DNA from: Leptolyngbya sp. SIOISBB
GTDB lineage: Bacteria; Cyanobacteriota; Cyanobacteriia; Phormidesmidales; Phormidesmidaceae
Direction: 5' to 3'
DNA: 64,000 nucleotides
Assembly: GCA_010671905.1 (NCBI GenBank)
Contig: JAAHII010000001.1
Coordinates: 4,154,001-4,218,000, forward strand
The notes under the pieces: generated by a model
Told to the model about the DNA's origin: nothing
What the model saw: the letters and a program-made list of their open reading frames with translations, nothing else
The model's database searches: none
Position numbers and translations under genes: made by a program
Shown here: positions 1,065-63,856 of the stretch, in pieces
Position numbering within the stretch: the stretch's first letter is position 1
How the letters are laid out: the number at the start of each line of letters is the position of its first letter

Positions 1065-2759
1065 ATGGCGCTGACAAACCGCATAAACTTTCGAAATGCG
1101 CGCGGCGATATCTTTGGGGGGGTGACTGCGGCGGTAATCGCTCTGCCGATGGCGCTTGCCTTCGGTGTGGCATCCGGTGCAGGCCCAGCCGCTGGCCTCT
1201 ACGGCGCAGTTTTAGTTGGCTTTTTTGCTGCCCTCTTTGGTGGCACTCCCACTCTTATTTCCGAGCCCACCGGTCCGATGACGGTGGTGATGACGGCGAT
1301 TATCGCCAAGCTGATAGCAGCAGATCCTGAAAACGGTATGGCGATGGCCTTTACCGTGGTGATGATGGCTGGTGTCTTGCAAATCGTCTTTGGCCTACTG
1401 AAATTAGGTCGTTACGTCACACTGATGCCCTATACCGTTATTTCCGGCTTTATGTCCGGTATCGGTGTGATTCTGATTATTTTGCAAATTGGCCCCTTCC
1501 TTGGACAGGCCAGTCCGAAAGGGGGGGTCGTTGGTACAATCACCAGCTTGCCTGAATTGTTCAACAATGCGGTGATGCCAGAGGTCATCCTGGCAGTCTT
1601 CACCATTGCTGTACTGTTCTTGATGCCGAAGCGATTCAAGCGGATCCTGCCACCTCAGTTAGTGGTTCTAATTGCTGGAACGCTCTTGTCAGTCGCTGTC
1701 TTTGGCAATGCTGACATCCGTCGAATCGGCGCAATCCCGACCGGTCTGCCAGCGATTCAGATGCCGACGTTTACGGCTGCTCAATTCCAGATTATGTTGA
1801 TTGACGCTCTGGTATTGGCGGCTTTAGGCTGTATCGATGCGCTGTTGACTTCGATGGTGGCAGACAGCTTGACTCGAACTCAACATAAATCTGACAAAGA
1901 GTTGATCGGTCAGGGTTTAGGTAATCTGTTTTCGGGGCTGTTCGGTGGTTTGCCGGGTGCAGGGGCCACGATGGGCACCGTGGTTAACATCCAGACGGGT
2001 GGGCGGACGGCACTCTCTGGTTTGGTGCGGGCTGTTTTGTTGATGGTGGTGGTCTTAGGTGCGGCCGGTTTGATTGCCCCCATTCCCCTCGCGGTGTTGG
2101 CCGGTATCGCGATGAAGGTTGGTTTCGACATTCTGGACTGGAGCTTCTTAAAGCGGGCGCACAGCGTCTCTTGGAAAGGCACTTTGATCATGTATGGGGT
2201 GCTCTTTCTCACCGTGTTTGTGGATTTGATTGTGGCAGTGGGTGTCGGCGTCTTTATCGCGAACATTCTGACCATTGACCGGTTGACCAAGCTGCAGTCT
2301 GACGAGGTGAAGACCATTACCGACGCGGACGAAGACGAAGAGCTACAAATGACCCAAGAGGAGCAGGCTTTGCTCGATCGCGCTGCTGGTCGAGTACTCC
2401 TCTTTCACTTGAGCGGGCCCATGATCTTTGGGGTGGCTAAGGCGATCGCCCGTGAGCACAACGCGATGAAGGATCACGACATTTTGATTCTGGACTTGCA
2501 AGATGTGCCGATTTTGGGGGTTACGGCTTCTCTCTCTTTGGAAAACATGATCCAGGATGCCTGTGACAACGAGCGTCCTGTATTCATCGCAGGGGCTTCT
2601 GATCAAGCCCTAAGGCGTTTAGAGAATCTTGGTGTCCGTCGATTTGTGGCTGATGAGCACATTGTTGAAACCCGTACTCAAGCTTTGCAAGGTGCCCTAA
2701 CACTGCTAGATGAAATCGCTGACAGTGCTAAGGCATCGGTGCTGCCTTCAGTGAACTAG
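1065..2759 (+). CDS. bicA: BicA-type Na+-dependent bicarbonate transporter (SulP/SLC26)
   Basis: Plasma-membrane SulP-family transporter, about 564 residues, which in cyanobacteria takes up HCO3- with Na+ for the carbon-concentrating mechanism. The N-terminus (NFRNARGDIFGG), the block GGTPTLISEPTGPMTVVMTA, the segment GCIDALLTSMVADSLTR and the motif GAGATMGTVVNIQ agree closely with characterised BicA as I remember it. About 12-14 membrane segments fill residues 15-410. A cytoplasmic STAS domain follows (about 440-550). The ATG at 1065 is preferred over an in-frame GTG at 1056 because an AGG lies about 8 bases upstream and the family starts there. A Na+/H+ antiporter gene follows on the same strand and could recycle the co-transported sodium. 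Confidence 0.93.
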   Translation: MALTNRINFRNARGDIFGGVTAAVIALPMALAFGVASGAGPAAGLYGAVLVGFFAALFGGTPTLISEPTGPMTVVMTAIIAKLIAADPENGMAMAFTVVMMAGVLQIVFGLLKLGRYVTLMPYTVISGFMSGIGVILIILQIGPFLGQASPKGGVVGTITSLPELFNNAVMPEVILAVFTIAVLFLMPKRFKRILPPQLVVLIAGTLLSVAVFGNADIRRIGAIPTGLPAIQMPTFTAAQFQIMLIDALVLAALGCIDALLTSMVADSLTRTQHKSDKELIGQGLGNLFSGLFGGLPGAGATMGTVVNIQTGGRTALSGLVRAVLLMVVVLGAAGLIAPIPLAVLAGIAMKVGFDILDWSFLKRAHSVSWKGTLIMYGVLFLTVFVDLIVAVGVGVFIANILTIDRLTKLQSDEVKTITDADEDEELQMTQEEQALLDRAAGRVLLFHLSGPMIFGVAKAIAREHNAMKDHDILILDLQDVPILGVTASLSLENMIQDACDNERPVFIAGASDQALRRLENLGVRRFVADEHIVETRTQALQGALTLLDEIADSAKASVLPSVN

Positions 2760-2849
2760 CGGTTGGTTTCTGTGGTAGTGCTGAACCGCGATCAATGATG
2801 ACTCATAGCATCTGATTTTGGGAAAGTTTCGCAGCCTCGTTCACCTGAT

Positions 2850-2908
2850 GAGTTGGAGGTTGGAGTTCCGGCTAGCGCACTGCTCGCGAACACTCCAACA
2901 TCCAACTC
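2850..2908 (+). terminator. Large hairpin between bicA and the antiporter
   Basis: Positions 2850-2866 pair with 2892-2908 at 16 of 17 bases around a 25-base loop. No T-run follows, so this may be a factor-dependent terminator, an mRNA-processing or stability structure, or both. It lies about 90 bases after the bicA stop. Confidence 0.5.
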
Positions 2909-3056
2909 ACCTACTCAACCTTGAACGTCGTCACGAGACTGCTTCCTGCAGTTGGGCTGGTATGCCTTTCAAAATGCTGCTTAATAGTCAACTTTGAACG
3001 ATCAAACGCGCATAAAACGATTGATTTTTTTGGAACGTAGTTAGGACACAAGCGTA

Positions 3057-4439
3057 ATGCTCTCTCTCGATTTCGTACATCATTCCCTTGCCTTATCCTC
3101 CGTGTTAGCGGAGGCACCCACGCCAGAAGCTGGCCCCTTAATTTTGGCAGGGGTATTGCTCAGCCTGATGGTTGTATATCTAGCCAGTAAGTTAGGCGGC
3201 GAACTCTCGAAGCTGATCGGTTTGCCCCCAGTGCTCGGTGAATTGGTTAGCGGGGTACTCGTAGGGGTTTCGGCCTTGCACCTGCTGGTTTTTCCCGAAG
3301 CGGGGGTAGAAGCCTCTAGTTCCGTTTTGATGACGACTCTGCAAACCCTGATGGGAACTTCGGGTGAAACCTTGGAGTATGTGTTTGAAACCCAGGGCGA
3401 AGTCATTTCTATTTTGGCCGAACTGGGCGTCATCATTTTGCTGTTTGAAATCGGCCTAGAGTCTGACCTCAAGGAACTGCAAAAAGTTGGTTGGCAAGCG
3501 GCAATTGTCGCGATCGTCGGTGTGGTTGCACCCTTTGCAATGGGGACAATCGGACTGATGGCCTTTTTTCAAGTCGCGGTACTACCTGCCATTTTTGCGG
3601 GGGCAGCGCTGACAGCAACCAGTATTGGTATTACCTCAAAGGTGCTGTCTGAATTGGGTCAATTGCGATCGCGAGAAGGCCAGATCATTGTCGGTGCGGC
3701 CGTCATGGATGACGTTCTCGGCATCATCGTCTTAGCCGTGGTCGCCAGCTTGGCCAAAACGGGAGATGTTTCGATTACTAACGTTGCCATTTTGATTGCG
3801 AGTGCTAGTGGCTTCCTGCTCGGTGCGATTCTGATTGGACGTGGTTTCAACAAAGTCTTTGGTAGCATCGCTGACCGTCTACAAACTCGTGGCAACTTGG
3901 TGATTCCGGCACTGACGTTTGCTTTGGCGCTCGCCTTTGTTGCTCAAGTCGTTCACCTCGAAGCTATTCTCGGTGCCTTTGCCGCAGGTTTGGTGCTGGA
4001 TGAAACCGATCAGCGCAAGGAACTGGACCGCCAAATCATTCCCATTGCGGACGTCTTGGTGCCCATCTTCTTCGTGACTGTGGGTGCACGGGTTGACCTC
4101 AGTGTGTTGAACCCGGTGAATCCGGATAATCGCGCCGGTCTGATTATTGCGGCTTTCCTGATTGTGGTCGCCATCATTGGTAAGACCATTACAGGCTGGG
4201 CCGTCTTTGGTAAAGAACCGATCAATCGCCTCGCTGTCGGCGTGGGGATGATTCCTCGGGGGGAAGTGGGCTTGGTATTTGCAGGCATTGGCGCTGCCAG
4301 CGGCACGCTAGATCGTCCCTTGCAAGCAGCAATCATTGCGATGGTGATTATCACCACTCTTGTGGCACCGTTGCTGTTACGGGTTGCCTTCCGTGATGAC
4401 GAAGCGGTGGTGGAAACTGCGGATTTGGCTGGGTCGTAG
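3057..4439 (+). CDS. CPA2-family Na+/H+ antiporter (NhaS3/KefB-like)
   Basis: Integral membrane cation:proton antiporter of 460 residues, close to the usual CPA2 core length, with no C-terminal TrkA-N domain. About 12 hydrophobic segments are visible. Family landmarks include GAALTATSIGITSKVLSELG followed by the acidic pair in AAVMDDVLGIIVLAVVAS, and MIPRGEVGLVFAGIG near residue 400. ATG at 3057 follows a TTAGGA sequence. The gene is co-oriented with bicA, an arrangement consistent with removing the Na+ that enters with bicarbonate. Synechocystis NhaS3 is the nearest characterised protein I can name, but orthology is not proven. A hairpin with a T-run follows at 4500-4538. Confidence 0.85.
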   Translation: MLSLDFVHHSLALSSVLAEAPTPEAGPLILAGVLLSLMVVYLASKLGGELSKLIGLPPVLGELVSGVLVGVSALHLLVFPEAGVEASSSVLMTTLQTLMGTSGETLEYVFETQGEVISILAELGVIILLFEIGLESDLKELQKVGWQAAIVAIVGVVAPFAMGTIGLMAFFQVAVLPAIFAGAALTATSIGITSKVLSELGQLRSREGQIIVGAAVMDDVLGIIVLAVVASLAKTGDVSITNVAILIASASGFLLGAILIGRGFNKVFGSIADRLQTRGNLVIPALTFALALAFVAQVVHLEAILGAFAAGLVLDETDQRKELDRQIIPIADVLVPIFFVTVGARVDLSVLNPVNPDNRAGLIIAAFLIVVAIIGKTITGWAVFGKEPINRLAVGVGMIPRGEVGLVFAGIGAASGTLDRPLQAAIIAMVIITTLVAPLLLRVAFRDDEAVVETADLAGS

Positions 4440-4538: not shown

Positions 4539-4898
4539 GCCATACCTTTCTCATTAGCGATTGCGATCGCTCTAGGCACCCAGTTCTTTTTGGGTGAGGG
4601 TGATAACGATACTTGAGCAACATCGTCGGCAAATACTTCTGGGGCCCTGCATTTTGGGCACACCACTGAATGAGACTGAGCGCCTGTACAAAAGACGTTT
4701 GCCAAGCCTCTAAAGTCGATGGCAGCCAATATAAACGGCGAGTTTTTAGCCTCGATCGATCGCCAGATCTCCTTATGCAAAGAGCCATACAGCAGTTTTT
4801 GTTACAACTGTTAAGGATTATTTATCAAACGCATAATCTCGACTCAACCTGTAGCGAACGGTGCGACACTGAGAAAGACTTTATGTGCTCGAGGTTTC
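4539..4898. other. Non-coding region, possible minus-strand gene remnant
   Basis: No confident gene. Two overlapping minus-strand frames (4490-4780 and 4525-4788) have fairly protein-like stretches such as LPSTLEAWQTSF and KYRYHPHPKRTG, which could be the remains of an older gene or of a transposase. I recognise no family and see no start signal. Confidence 0.3.
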
Positions 4899-6384
4899 AT
4901 GGTCGCTACTGCTGCCCACTCCATCATGGATCGCCTGCCCGAACTCATTGACGATATGCCCCCCTCTAGCTGGGTGGAGCGATCGCATCGAAGCGCACAC
5001 TCAGGGTACTGACCCAATTTATTTAGACCGCACCAACCTACGACTGTCGGACATTTCGGCTGGGTTTGCGATCGCCCTCCATATGCACCAACCGACCATT
5101 CCCGCTGGGCATGACGGGCAGTTGATCAGCAACCTGCAGCATATGTTTGAGCATCCCTACGACGGGGATAATCATAATGCGGGACCATTTGCCTATTGCT
5201 ACGCCCGCATGGGTGACTTCATTCCAGAACTTGTGGAGCAGGGCTGCAATCCTCGGGTGATGCTCGACTACTCAGGAACACTGCTGTGGGGATTTCAGCA
5301 GATGCAGCGCCACGACATTTTAGACAAATTGCGGCGCATCACCTGCGAGGCGAAATATCAGCCCTACGTCGAATGGCTCGGCACCTTTTGGGGCCATGCG
5401 GTGGCGCCTTCCACCCCCATCCCCGATATGAAATTGCATATTCGTGCTTGGCAGCATCACTTCGCGGCGCTGTTCGGGGGGGATGCCCTGTCGCGAGTGC
5501 GGGGCTTTTCGCCGCCAGAGATGCACCTACCCAACCATCCCGATACGCTATACACCTTTGTCAAAGCACTGAAGGATTGTGGCTATCAGTGGCTGATGGT
5601 GCAAGAACACACGATTGAAACGTTGGATGGTCAAGGCATTCAACAGCCCCATTTGCCTCATCGCCTGGTGGCTAAAAACTCTCAGGGAGCAGTGGCCGAA
5701 ATTACGGTACTGATCAAAACCCAAGGATCCGATACTAAGCTGGTGGGTCAAATGCAGCCCTTTGCTGAAGCCAAGTCCCTGCAAAGGGCAACTTTGGATG
5801 GCCAGCAAATACCGCCGTTAGTGTCGCAGATCAGCGATGGCGAAAACGGTGGCGTCATGATGAATGAGTTCCCAAGCATGTTCAAGCGGTGCTGGCATGA
5901 GATGCGCCAGCATGGGAGTGGGCGCGTGGGCACAGTGGGTCTGCTCGGTACCGAATATCTAGAACTTTTGGCGGCAGCGGGCATTACTGAGGCCAGCTTC
6001 CCCACCTGTCAGGCCATTGGACAACAGCGGCTCTGGCAAACTGTCGGCGATCGCCCGACCCCCGACTCTGTACAATCGGCGATTGCCTCCATTCAAGCAA
6101 CGGATGGCAACTTCCAGATGGAAGGCTCTTCTTGGACCAGCGATCGCAGTTGGGTCGAGGGCTATGGCAATGTCATGCAGCCGATGCAGCAGTTGAGCGC
6201 CCGCTTCCACCAAGCACTACAAGCAGGCCGACTGGGGGATGAGCGATCGCCTGAATATCACCGAGCTCTGCTCCATAACCTATTATTAGAGACCAGTTGC
6301 TTTCGCTACTGGGGACAAGGAGCTTGGACAGAATATGCCCAAACCATTTACCGTCGGGGACTCGCAACCCTCACAGGTAGCTAA
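4899..6384 (+). pseudogene. Glycoside hydrolase family 57 protein, interrupted by a frameshift
   Basis: GH57-type carbohydrate-active enzyme, probably acting on alpha-glucans. The best start is ATG 4899, with GAGG four bases upstream. It encodes MVATAAHSIMDRLPELIDD and about 35 residues until a +1 shift. The rest of the protein, from TDPIYLDRTNLRLSDISAG on, lies in the next frame and is open to 6384. Removing one G from the GGG at 5004-5006 restores one reading frame of about 495 residues. Family signs are ALHMHQPTIPAG (first GH57 motif), FSPPEMHLP (candidate catalytic Glu) and conserved aromatic and acidic positions near the C-terminus. An upstream start in the downstream frame (4885) gives an unnatural N-terminus. 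The break may be a real mutation or a homopolymer error. Confidence 0.8.
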
Positions 6385-60348: not shown

Positions 60349-60954
60349 TTACAGAAGCTGGGGTGAGAATTGCGTCATCATGACCGGCCCTAAAAGATAC
60401 GCATGGCGATCGCAACGTAAACCCGCCTGGGCACCGAGGGTAGTTCTCGCGGCCGCGCTGTAGAAGGTCACGCCGGCTGGCGAAATGCCTCGGTGCGCAA
60501 TATCTTGGCCGGACCAAGGCGGTGGCGTGAAGTCAACCAGATAGAAGTGACCACTCGGTTTGAGTACTGGTGCGATCGCCTGCAATGCCGCCAACGGCTC
60601 AGGATAATGTAAAAAACTGATGCAGCAAAAGACCGCATCAAACGTTTGAAACGCAAATTGGGCATCGGTCACATTGCCCTCAACAAATTGCAGGCGATCG
60701 GCATAGGGTGTCCGCTGACGCGCCTGCGTCACCATCGCTGGAGAAAAATCCAGACCCGTACCCGTCACCATCGGCCAATGCTGTACTACACGATTGAGTA
60801 GCTTGCCCGTCCCGCAACCTATATCAAGCACATGGGCATGGAGCGGTAGGGTGACAAACTCAAGCAGACGTATATGTACGGCCTGATAAAACACCGATGG
60901 CAGCAAGGCATCGTAAATCGGCGCCCAAAGATCAAAGAAGTCACGTTTGTCCAT
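60349..60954 (-). CDS. Class I SAM-dependent methyltransferase
   Basis: 201 residues. Motif I reads VLDIGCGTGKLL, with TGLDFSPAMVTQARQR and the post-I acidic residue, AVFCCISFLHYPEP and KPSGHFYLVDF following. A UbiE/methyltransferase-11-type fold is clear; the substrate is unknown. The C-terminal part is short (TLGAQAGLRCDRHAYLLGPV). Confidence 0.88.
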   Translation of the reverse strand: MDKRDFFDLWAPIYDALLPSVFYQAVHIRLLEFVTLPLHAHVLDIGCGTGKLLNRVVQHWPMVTGTGLDFSPAMVTQARQRTPYADRLQFVEGNVTDAQFAFQTFDAVFCCISFLHYPEPLAALQAIAPVLKPSGHFYLVDFTPPPWSGQDIAHRGISPAGVTFYSAAARTTLGAQAGLRCDRHAYLLGPVMMTQFSPQLL

Positions 60955-62065: not shown

Positions 62066-63808
62066 TTAAGGATAAAAGGGTTTCATTGCTTGTAAGATTG
62101 CCCCTGCTGTTTGGACATTTTCACCGACGTTTTCGACACAATGGCACATGATGGTGAGTTTACTTTCCAAGTCTGAGAAAGTCTGACAGTATTCAAACGT
62201 AGCGTGTAGTAGGTCATCCAAAGATTGCGATTTCAGGGTGAGCCAATCTTGCCGGTTCGCGGTAAACGGACTTCGCACTGTTGATAGCAGCAGGATTTTT
62301 GCGCGCAGCGGATTTGTATACCGCATGATGTCTAAGCGGAGATGATAAATGTTGGCGCGATCGCGCAGCCGCACTGATTCCTGCTCGCTATTGTCAGTAG
62401 CCATTTCAGGAACCGATGTGATGCGGTTGACATGGGCACAGGTTTGTTCTCCTGAGGCTTCTAGACTGACCCAGTTAGTGAGTGAAGTCATGCCATCTTC
62501 GCCTAAGGCAGCTGTGGCATCAGGATGCATCTCGGTGAAGTCGTCATCACGCCTCTGAGTATCGATCGTCCCAGCCGATTCAGGCACGATTTCTTGGGTC
62601 GCTACGTATAACGGGTGCAAAGCTTCTGAGATTACTAAAGCCAGTTGAGTATATCGAGCCTTACGATTGAGACATTTGACAATGCGCTCTAGGTGATAAC
62701 TCAAATCGCCCTCAGTAGGGGCAAGCTGATGCACCTCAGCGATCAACTCAGCAATCGTATTGAGCGCTAGAGCAGCAGGATCATTCTCCCAAGTCGAATG
62801 CAAAATCGCGTAAAGGAGCTTCTTGATGCGTTGGCGATCGTCATGTTGCATCAGGCTTTGAGCGGCTTGCTGGTAATGCTCTTGAATGCTCTTCGACAGG
62901 AGCGGGGTAGCGGCACCGGTCACTTCGGGTTGGTCATAGACGGGCTCTAACACCGTGAGAATGATGTTGGCGATCGCCAGGTAGCTCTCCTGATGATTGA
63001 GCTGTGACGCCATCGTTTGGAGCGCCTTTTCCAGAGAAATGAGGGTGTGGTGACGCTGTTGGAGTTGCGCCAACATCATTTCCAAATTAAATTGCGCCAA
63101 GACTTTAGGATCGTTTTCCCAAACGCCTTGATAAGTACCAAAAATGAGTTTCTTGATCCGACGATATTGGGGGTCTTGTTCCAGCACAGAGACGGCATTC
63201 GCTAAAGCCGATTGGGAACTCACTGCAGCGGCCCCCATTGGGCTAGCCACCACCATCGTTGCCGATTGGCCACACGGAGGAATTTGGTAGGCAGTGACCG
63301 GCTCTTGAATGTTTTTCAGCTTTAAGGGGCCCAAAAAGCTGGCATTGACCTTAATACGGGCTTTCACTACGTCGTAAACGGTTTGCGAAATGCAAATACC
63401 GCCAGGAGTCGATTTCGTCTGCAATCGAGCAGCAATATTGACACCATTACCCAAAACATCGCCATGGCTCAGTAAGACATCCCCTAAGTGGATCCCAATT
63501 CGATGCTGCAGATAATCTTCAGGGGGGACGCCTTCGACCAATTTGGCCAGTTGATGTTGGATCTCTTGGCTACACAACACTGCCTGTACAGCACTGTAAA
63601 ACGACATGAGCAAGCCATCACCGGTGGATTTAAGGACCTTGCCACCAAAGCATTCACACTGCTCAGCAATCAGGTCGAGGTCTCTCTGAATCAGGGTTAG
63701 AGTACCCTCTTCATCAACTGACATTCGGGCACTATAACTGACCGCATCGGTTAACACGATGGCGGCCAAGGCTCTCTCAGCTGGGGAATAGATATGGCTC
63801 GGCTGCAT
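62066..63808 (-). CDS. Class III adenylate/guanylate cyclase with three C-terminal repeats
   Basis: From ATG 63808, 580 residues (the frame extends to 63856). The cyclase domain (about 10-180) has the metal Asp in IVLTDAVSYSARM, the second Asp in KSTGDGLLMSFYSA, and the transition-state residues in LGNGVNIAARLQ. Three similar helical units follow. Unit 1 starts RRIKKLIFGTYQGVWENDP and ends LTVLEPVY. Unit 2 starts QRIKKLLYAILHSTWENDP and ends EALHPLY. Unit 3 starts LRAKILLLSTVRSPFTANR and ends LQAMKPFY at the C-terminus. I know of no named domain for the unit. Confidence 0.85.
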   Translation of the reverse strand: MQPSHIYSPAERALAAIVLTDAVSYSARMSVDEEGTLTLIQRDLDLIAEQCECFGGKVLKSTGDGLLMSFYSAVQAVLCSQEIQHQLAKLVEGVPPEDYLQHRIGIHLGDVLLSHGDVLGNGVNIAARLQTKSTPGGICISQTVYDVVKARIKVNASFLGPLKLKNIQEPVTAYQIPPCGQSATMVVASPMGAAAVSSQSALANAVSVLEQDPQYRRIKKLIFGTYQGVWENDPKVLAQFNLEMMLAQLQQRHHTLISLEKALQTMASQLNHQESYLAIANIILTVLEPVYDQPEVTGAATPLLSKSIQEHYQQAAQSLMQHDDRQRIKKLLYAILHSTWENDPAALALNTIAELIAEVHQLAPTEGDLSYHLERIVKCLNRKARYTQLALVISEALHPLYVATQEIVPESAGTIDTQRRDDDFTEMHPDATAALGEDGMTSLTNWVSLEASGEQTCAHVNRITSVPEMATDNSEQESVRLRDRANIYHLRLDIMRYTNPLRAKILLLSTVRSPFTANRQDWLTLKSQSLDDLLHATFEYCQTFSDLESKLTIMCHCVENVGENVQTAGAILQAMKPFYP

Positions 63809-63856
63809 ATTGATTGGCAAATGCTGTGATCGCAAGCATGGACAGAAACCAATCAT

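Follow-up and report, generated by a model that had tools for sequence, protein, structure and literature searches.

Tandem helical units fused to a class III cyclase and their pentapeptide-repeat companion in Cyanobacteriia

Introduction

Cyanobacteria have far more pentapeptide-repeat proteins (PRPs) than other organisms, and the job of almost none of them is known (PMC8145042). Cyclases are not mentioned in that review. HetL, a cyanobacterial PRP, regulates by binding HetR directly (PMC7476756). Another described group, the ComFB proteins, binds c-di-AMP and c-di-GMP (PMC12313861). Effector-associated domains (EADs) of bacterial conflict systems are small, mostly helical domains joined to outputs of the kind met with here (PMC7159879).

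The locus described here lies in a window of 64,000 nucleotides, meaning the whole stretch of DNA that was analysed, from Leptolyngbya sp. SIOISBB. It encodes a class III nucleotide cyclase followed by three copies of a helical unit, and a PRP gene lies next to it. In the open papers searched, neither the domain nor the unit/PRP gene pair is described.

Gene layout

The features of the locus are listed in Table 1. An earlier sequence-only reading placed the three-unit gene at 62066-63808. The end of this span holds, and its start, 63808, corresponds to the in-frame Met17, which is as possible a start as the first ATG at 63856. By profile, the units span residues 225-307, 333-417, and 509-595, with a unit length of about 86 residues.

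Table 1. Features of the cyclase/unit locus, in window coordinates
Feature	Position	Strand	Details
Cyclase + three-unit protein gene	62066..63856	(-)	596 aa from first ATG
Class III nucleotide cyclase domain	63281..63778	(-)	residues 27-192; PF00211, 3mr7 match
Unit 1 (type 1)	62930..63196	(-)	residues 221-309
Unit 2 (type 2)	62600..62872	(-)	residues 329-419
Linker, predicted disordered	62375..62584	(-)	residues 425-494; pLDDT under 50
Unit 3 (type 3)	62069..62344	(-)	residues 505-596
Pentapeptide-repeat protein (PRP), 330 aa	60986..61978	(-)	PF00805; neighbour conservation; co-occurrence

A gene read from its sequence as chlD (magnesium chelatase subunit D) lies upstream of the unit gene on the same strand at L090:9014-11062 (-), a position just upstream of the end of the window, and also in L050, L057, L088, L091-L099, and L102. 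This synteny is conserved in the family to which the window belongs (f1) and absent elsewhere. In the window, a methyltransferase-like gene (60349-60954, minus strand) begins 31 bp past the PRP gene and is kept in close relatives; it is a possible further member of the operon.

Cyclase domain

PF00211 matches residues 54-192 (4.5e-08, 33.3 bits against a cutoff of 21.9). The closest solved relative is 3mr7 (8e-32), and LipJ and Ma1120 are also among the nearest. The catalytic set comprises D37, K76, D80, D133, N140, and R144, and none of the six varies among 35 aligned orthologues. We take them to be the two metal-binding Asp, the substrate Lys and Asp, and the transition-state Asn and Arg. 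The Pfam match and the six catalytic residues bear out the earlier description of a complete class III cyclase domain, and most of its fold region has a pLDDT of 90 or more in the full-length model. The Asp at the substrate position presumably means that ATP is the substrate, and this substrate-specifying residue suggests that the window enzyme may be an adenylyl cyclase.

Cyclases of the same subfamily in these cyanobacteria, including one in the genome of the window, have a C-terminal protein kinase, NACHT, or TIR-AAA instead of units. The units thus occupy a slot that is usual for regulatory or partner modules. Examples of such fusions, to a protein kinase, to NACHT, or to TIR plus AAA_35, are L141:571-2748 (-), L144, L145, and L147. 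A cyclase combined with TIR or NACHT resembles, by its domains, the architecture of conflict systems. A match to the anti-phage cyclase PycC of Pycsar (6.9e-06) was set aside, as it covers the common cyclase domain only.

Homology and types of the units

Units 1 and 2 had been called strikingly similar, and their local score of 112 compares with 29 +/- 5.5 for shuffled sequences (n=500, z = 15). The KKL and WENDP motifs are identical in both, as was read at first. Units 2 and 3 score 52 against 25 +/- 4.6 (z = 5.9), a value reached by 0/500 shuffles. The pair of units 1 and 3 is weak (z = 2.9, 5/500 shuffles). A profile built from type-3 units alone picks up type-1/2 units in proteins without type 3, with domain E-values mostly from about 1e-6 to 1e-10; the third copy is therefore a true homologue. 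Shuffles, type-3 profile, and the common helix pattern of the full-length model agree on three tandem copies.

A total of 211 units were collected from related loci, and a tree was built on 170 of them. All 56 type-3 units (56/56) fall in one clade with a support of 1.0. Unit 3 had been taken as a diverged copy with TANR in place of WENDP. The sequence difference is real and consists of a 3-residue insertion (FTANRQDW) at the WENDP site, which is typical of the entire type-3 class. Mere divergence does not describe it, since the tree places type 3 as an ancient and separately kept type. An origin of the three units as recent duplicates is rejected, since type 3 is a separate clade throughout.

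Fold and search for known relatives

Unit 2 alone is predicted by AlphaFold2, from a 96-row alignment, as a six-helix bundle with a pLDDT of 95.3 and a pTM of 0.86. Structure prediction, which the sequence-only reading had proposed as a check, thus gives a confident fold. In the full-length model, one helix pattern is seen in all three units, and these are joined by low-confidence linkers, the longest at residues 425-494. The overall pTM is low (0.39), as in beads on a string.

The units had been described as unrecognised, and a profile search placing them in a characterised family had been named as what would refute this. Searches of Pfam, NCBIfam, PHROGs, and PDB placed them in none. No Pfam or NCBIfam family exceeds its curated cut-off for the window units, for unit 2 alone, or for unit consensus sequences. 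The 96 unit members give scattered weak matches to curated families, and any one family is hit by two members at most. PHROGs and PDB sequences contain no convincing relative. DUF6899 (0.0094), Prp19-like (0.0021), HAUS4, and Hhe were rejected, being matches of single members or under curated cut-offs, as was phrog_1903 (6.5e-5), which is matched by one of 96 members. PDB profile matches are designed coiled coils and were judged compositional. Foldseek with the unit model finds no PDB chain at an E-value below 3. The best VIA-align scores (Z 3.3) belong to unrelated helical proteins, and one pyrin-type protein has a Z of 2.2. These structural negatives do not show the fold to be new.

Distribution and fusion partners

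By profile search, the unit is present in 92/386 Cyanobacteriota genomes and 51/142 genera. The listed positive genomes all belong to Cyanobacteriia, the class of the window. The unit is found in 0/200 Pseudomonadota genomes, and a plasmid collection gives no match. The family is confined to Cyanobacteriia, as far as tested.

Unit proteins have one to four copies. Many of them lack a cyclase and are made of units only. Rare fusions join the unit to a Ser/Thr kinase (L105, L106, L110), to ComFB (L119), or to WD40 repeats (L104). Parsimony places seven changes of the cyclase label on a tree of type-3 plus PRP sequences. A domain specific to cyclases is ruled out by the many cyclase-free proteins and the other fusions. 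The sequence-only reading of a domain attached to a second-messenger enzyme is right for this protein; across cyanobacteria the cyclase is an optional attachment and not the defining context.

The fusions vary in layout. In L105, L106, and L110, a Ser/Thr protein kinase ends in two or three C-terminal units. In most genomes of genus g36, a frame of about 780 residues resembling the kinase fusion lies beside a separate two-unit protein. L119:3463-4521 (-) has a single unit and a ComFB domain (PF10719, 2.3e-19), and frames of 365-378 residues in four other genomes of its genus resemble this fusion by length only. L104 has an N-terminal unit followed by WD40 repeats, with a weak, sub-threshold CHAT match. 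In L062:5071-6342 (-), two type-1 units precede a low-complexity repeat, a stretch judged by eye to be a likely membrane segment, and one more domain; this gene has no type 3 and no adjoining PRP, and its genome has a PRP elsewhere.

A small, all-helical six-helix bundle that occurs with outputs as different as a cyclase, a Ser/Thr kinase, ComFB, and WD40 with the sub-threshold CHAT match would also fit homotypic adaptors of the EAD or Death-like kind, in which copies on separate proteins self-associate and gather enzymes. EADs come paired on two proteins of a genome, however, with one copy on a core component and the other on a separate effector, and the genome of the window has a single unit protein, with one further stretch at an E-value of 0.06. 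Most other listed genomes likewise have one unit protein, which usually leaves the unit without another protein to pair with. No Pfam EAD model is among the matches, and the constant companion is a PRP rather than a second unit protein. Homotypic adaptors are thus an improbable explanation.

The pentapeptide-repeat companion

The PRP gene of the window matches PF00805 at 2.5e-74 in nine stretches and encodes tandem A(D/N)LXX pentapeptide repeats throughout. It lies 87 bp downstream of the unit gene. Neighbour clustering shows that the gene after a unit gene nearly always encodes a PRP of about 330 aa. The counts of adjacency refer to distinct unit-bearing genes with sufficient flanking sequence. 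The PRP is immediately downstream on the same strand in 72/78 testable type-3-bearing genes, the 72 including many closely related genomes; it is just upstream in 2 and adjoins the gene in none of the remaining 4. In proteins without type 3, no PRP adjoins in 9/10 testable cases. The exception is L087, a gene with a frameshift, in which the type-3 unit falls in the next ORF. At L111, paralogous PRP genes of about 330 aa (2394-3392 and 4807-5808, plus strand) lie on either side of the unit gene.

Among the 386 genomes, 89 have both unit and PRP, 3 the unit only, 1 the PRP only, and 293 neither (Fisher p about 1e-82, without correction for shared ancestry). The unit-only genomes G113, G241, and G312 contain broken unit fragments with stops or truncation, and in G312 a PRP remnant adjoins the unit remnant. 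At least four genomes (G143, G162, G177, and G225) have retained both genes far apart.

The two genes overlap in some cases and are up to a few hundred bp apart in others; most gaps are below 100 bp, and the genes often overlap or lie within 20 bp of each other. Such spacing is operon-like, and two genes of one broad pathway could share a conserved neighbourhood with no direct contact between their products. Some neighbours may indeed be passengers, because chlD too is syntenic upstream in f1. Near-perfect co-occurrence, joint loss, and co-retention at a distance exceed what operon inertia predicts, and we regard shared neighbourhood by itself as a poor prospect.

Which unit goes with the PRP

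The six genomes of genus g13 have the cyclase with units 1 and 2, no unit 3, and no PRP orthologue anywhere. Their best PRP matches are about 85-127 bits, which is background, as nearly all orthologues score 205 or more. In two f22 genomes, a type-3-only protein adjoins the PRP. The PRP is therefore tied to unit 3 rather than to units 1 and 2. The f22 genomes also have a type-1 plus type-3 protein, with no PRP within the stretch read. A split of one f22 gene into a U1-U2 half and a U3 half was rejected, since classification gave type-1 plus type-3 and type-3-only paralogues. G006-type paralogues have degenerate type-3 units and no adjoining PRP. Two kinase fusions bearing type 3 have no adjacent PRP. 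In a mirror-tree test, the correlation of PRP distances is 0.89 for type 1 and 0.82 for type 3, so that type 1 does at least as well. This fails to separate the two types, and the link of unit 3 to the PRP is thus drawn from presence and absence.

Alternatively, the conserved R-I-K-K and W-E-N-D residues could recognise a small ligand or a nucleic acid, which would make the units a sensor of the cyclase, with the PRP as a downstream effector that makes no contact. Even between highly divergent unit sequences, the R, L, W/E, and Y positions hardly vary, and one fusion joins the unit to ComFB, a family that binds c-di-AMP/c-di-GMP (PMC12313861). The conserved positions may however be fold determinants, and no ligand-binding relative is found by sequence (PDB) or fold (Foldseek). 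A sensor would also not account for the joint absence of type 3 and PRP beside a retained cyclase with units 1 and 2. A ligand sensor is accordingly an unlikely reading, if a slightly better one than homotypic adaptors or a shared neighbourhood.

Proposed docking module

The preferred reading is that unit 3 docks the PRP and that the tandem couples this complex to an output, here cAMP; its chances are about even. The three units would then be small helical docking domains set in tandem. The conserved core would be a two-gene module of a type-3 unit and a dedicated PRP beta-helix of about 330 aa, probably bound by type 3. For the type-1/2 units upstream of it, a second ligand or partner is the probable target. 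Assembly with the PRP would be expected to position cAMP synthesis by the fused cyclase, whose active site is intact, or to switch it. From sequence comparison we infer that the two proteins bind physically, that type 3 provides the surface for this, and that the cyclase is under control. Direct binding by a PRP has a precedent, because HetL binds HetR (PMC7476756).

Since ComFB binds c-di-AMP and c-di-GMP, its fusion to the unit may point to a broader connection with cyclic-nucleotide signalling. Somewhat less probable than docking itself, and put forward tentatively, is an unnamed cyanobacterial signalling system in which a dedicated PRP would be recognised by new tandem helical docking domains to which lineage-specific outputs (cAMP, phosphorylation, ComFB) are fused.

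Pfam has no entry for this domain family, which occurs in roughly a third of the genera sampled. For one of the more conserved cyanobacterial PRPs, the uniquely co-inherited unit protein is a testable candidate for a binding partner. The pair offers a route to learning how a beta-helix rod is read out as cAMP or phosphorylation.

Comparison with known systems

The units resemble EADs and bacterial Death-like domains in being small helical bundles on signalling enzymes. They differ in having no sequence match to these, no paired copies in the genome of the window, and a PRP companion.

The cyclases 3mr7, Mycobacterium LipJ (1ybt), and Ma1120 (class III, IIIc-like) share the catalytic Asp/Asp/Lys/Asp/Asn/Arg set with the window cyclase, and in none of them are the Gly-Asp and Asp-Val-x-Gly motifs separated by a long arm. 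The C-terminal three-unit tandem sets the window cyclase apart from them.

The window PRP matches HetL (3du1) at 4.9e-35. In contrast to HetL and other cyanobacterial PRPs, the companion keeps to a nearly fixed length of about 330 aa and is a regular associate of unit proteins.
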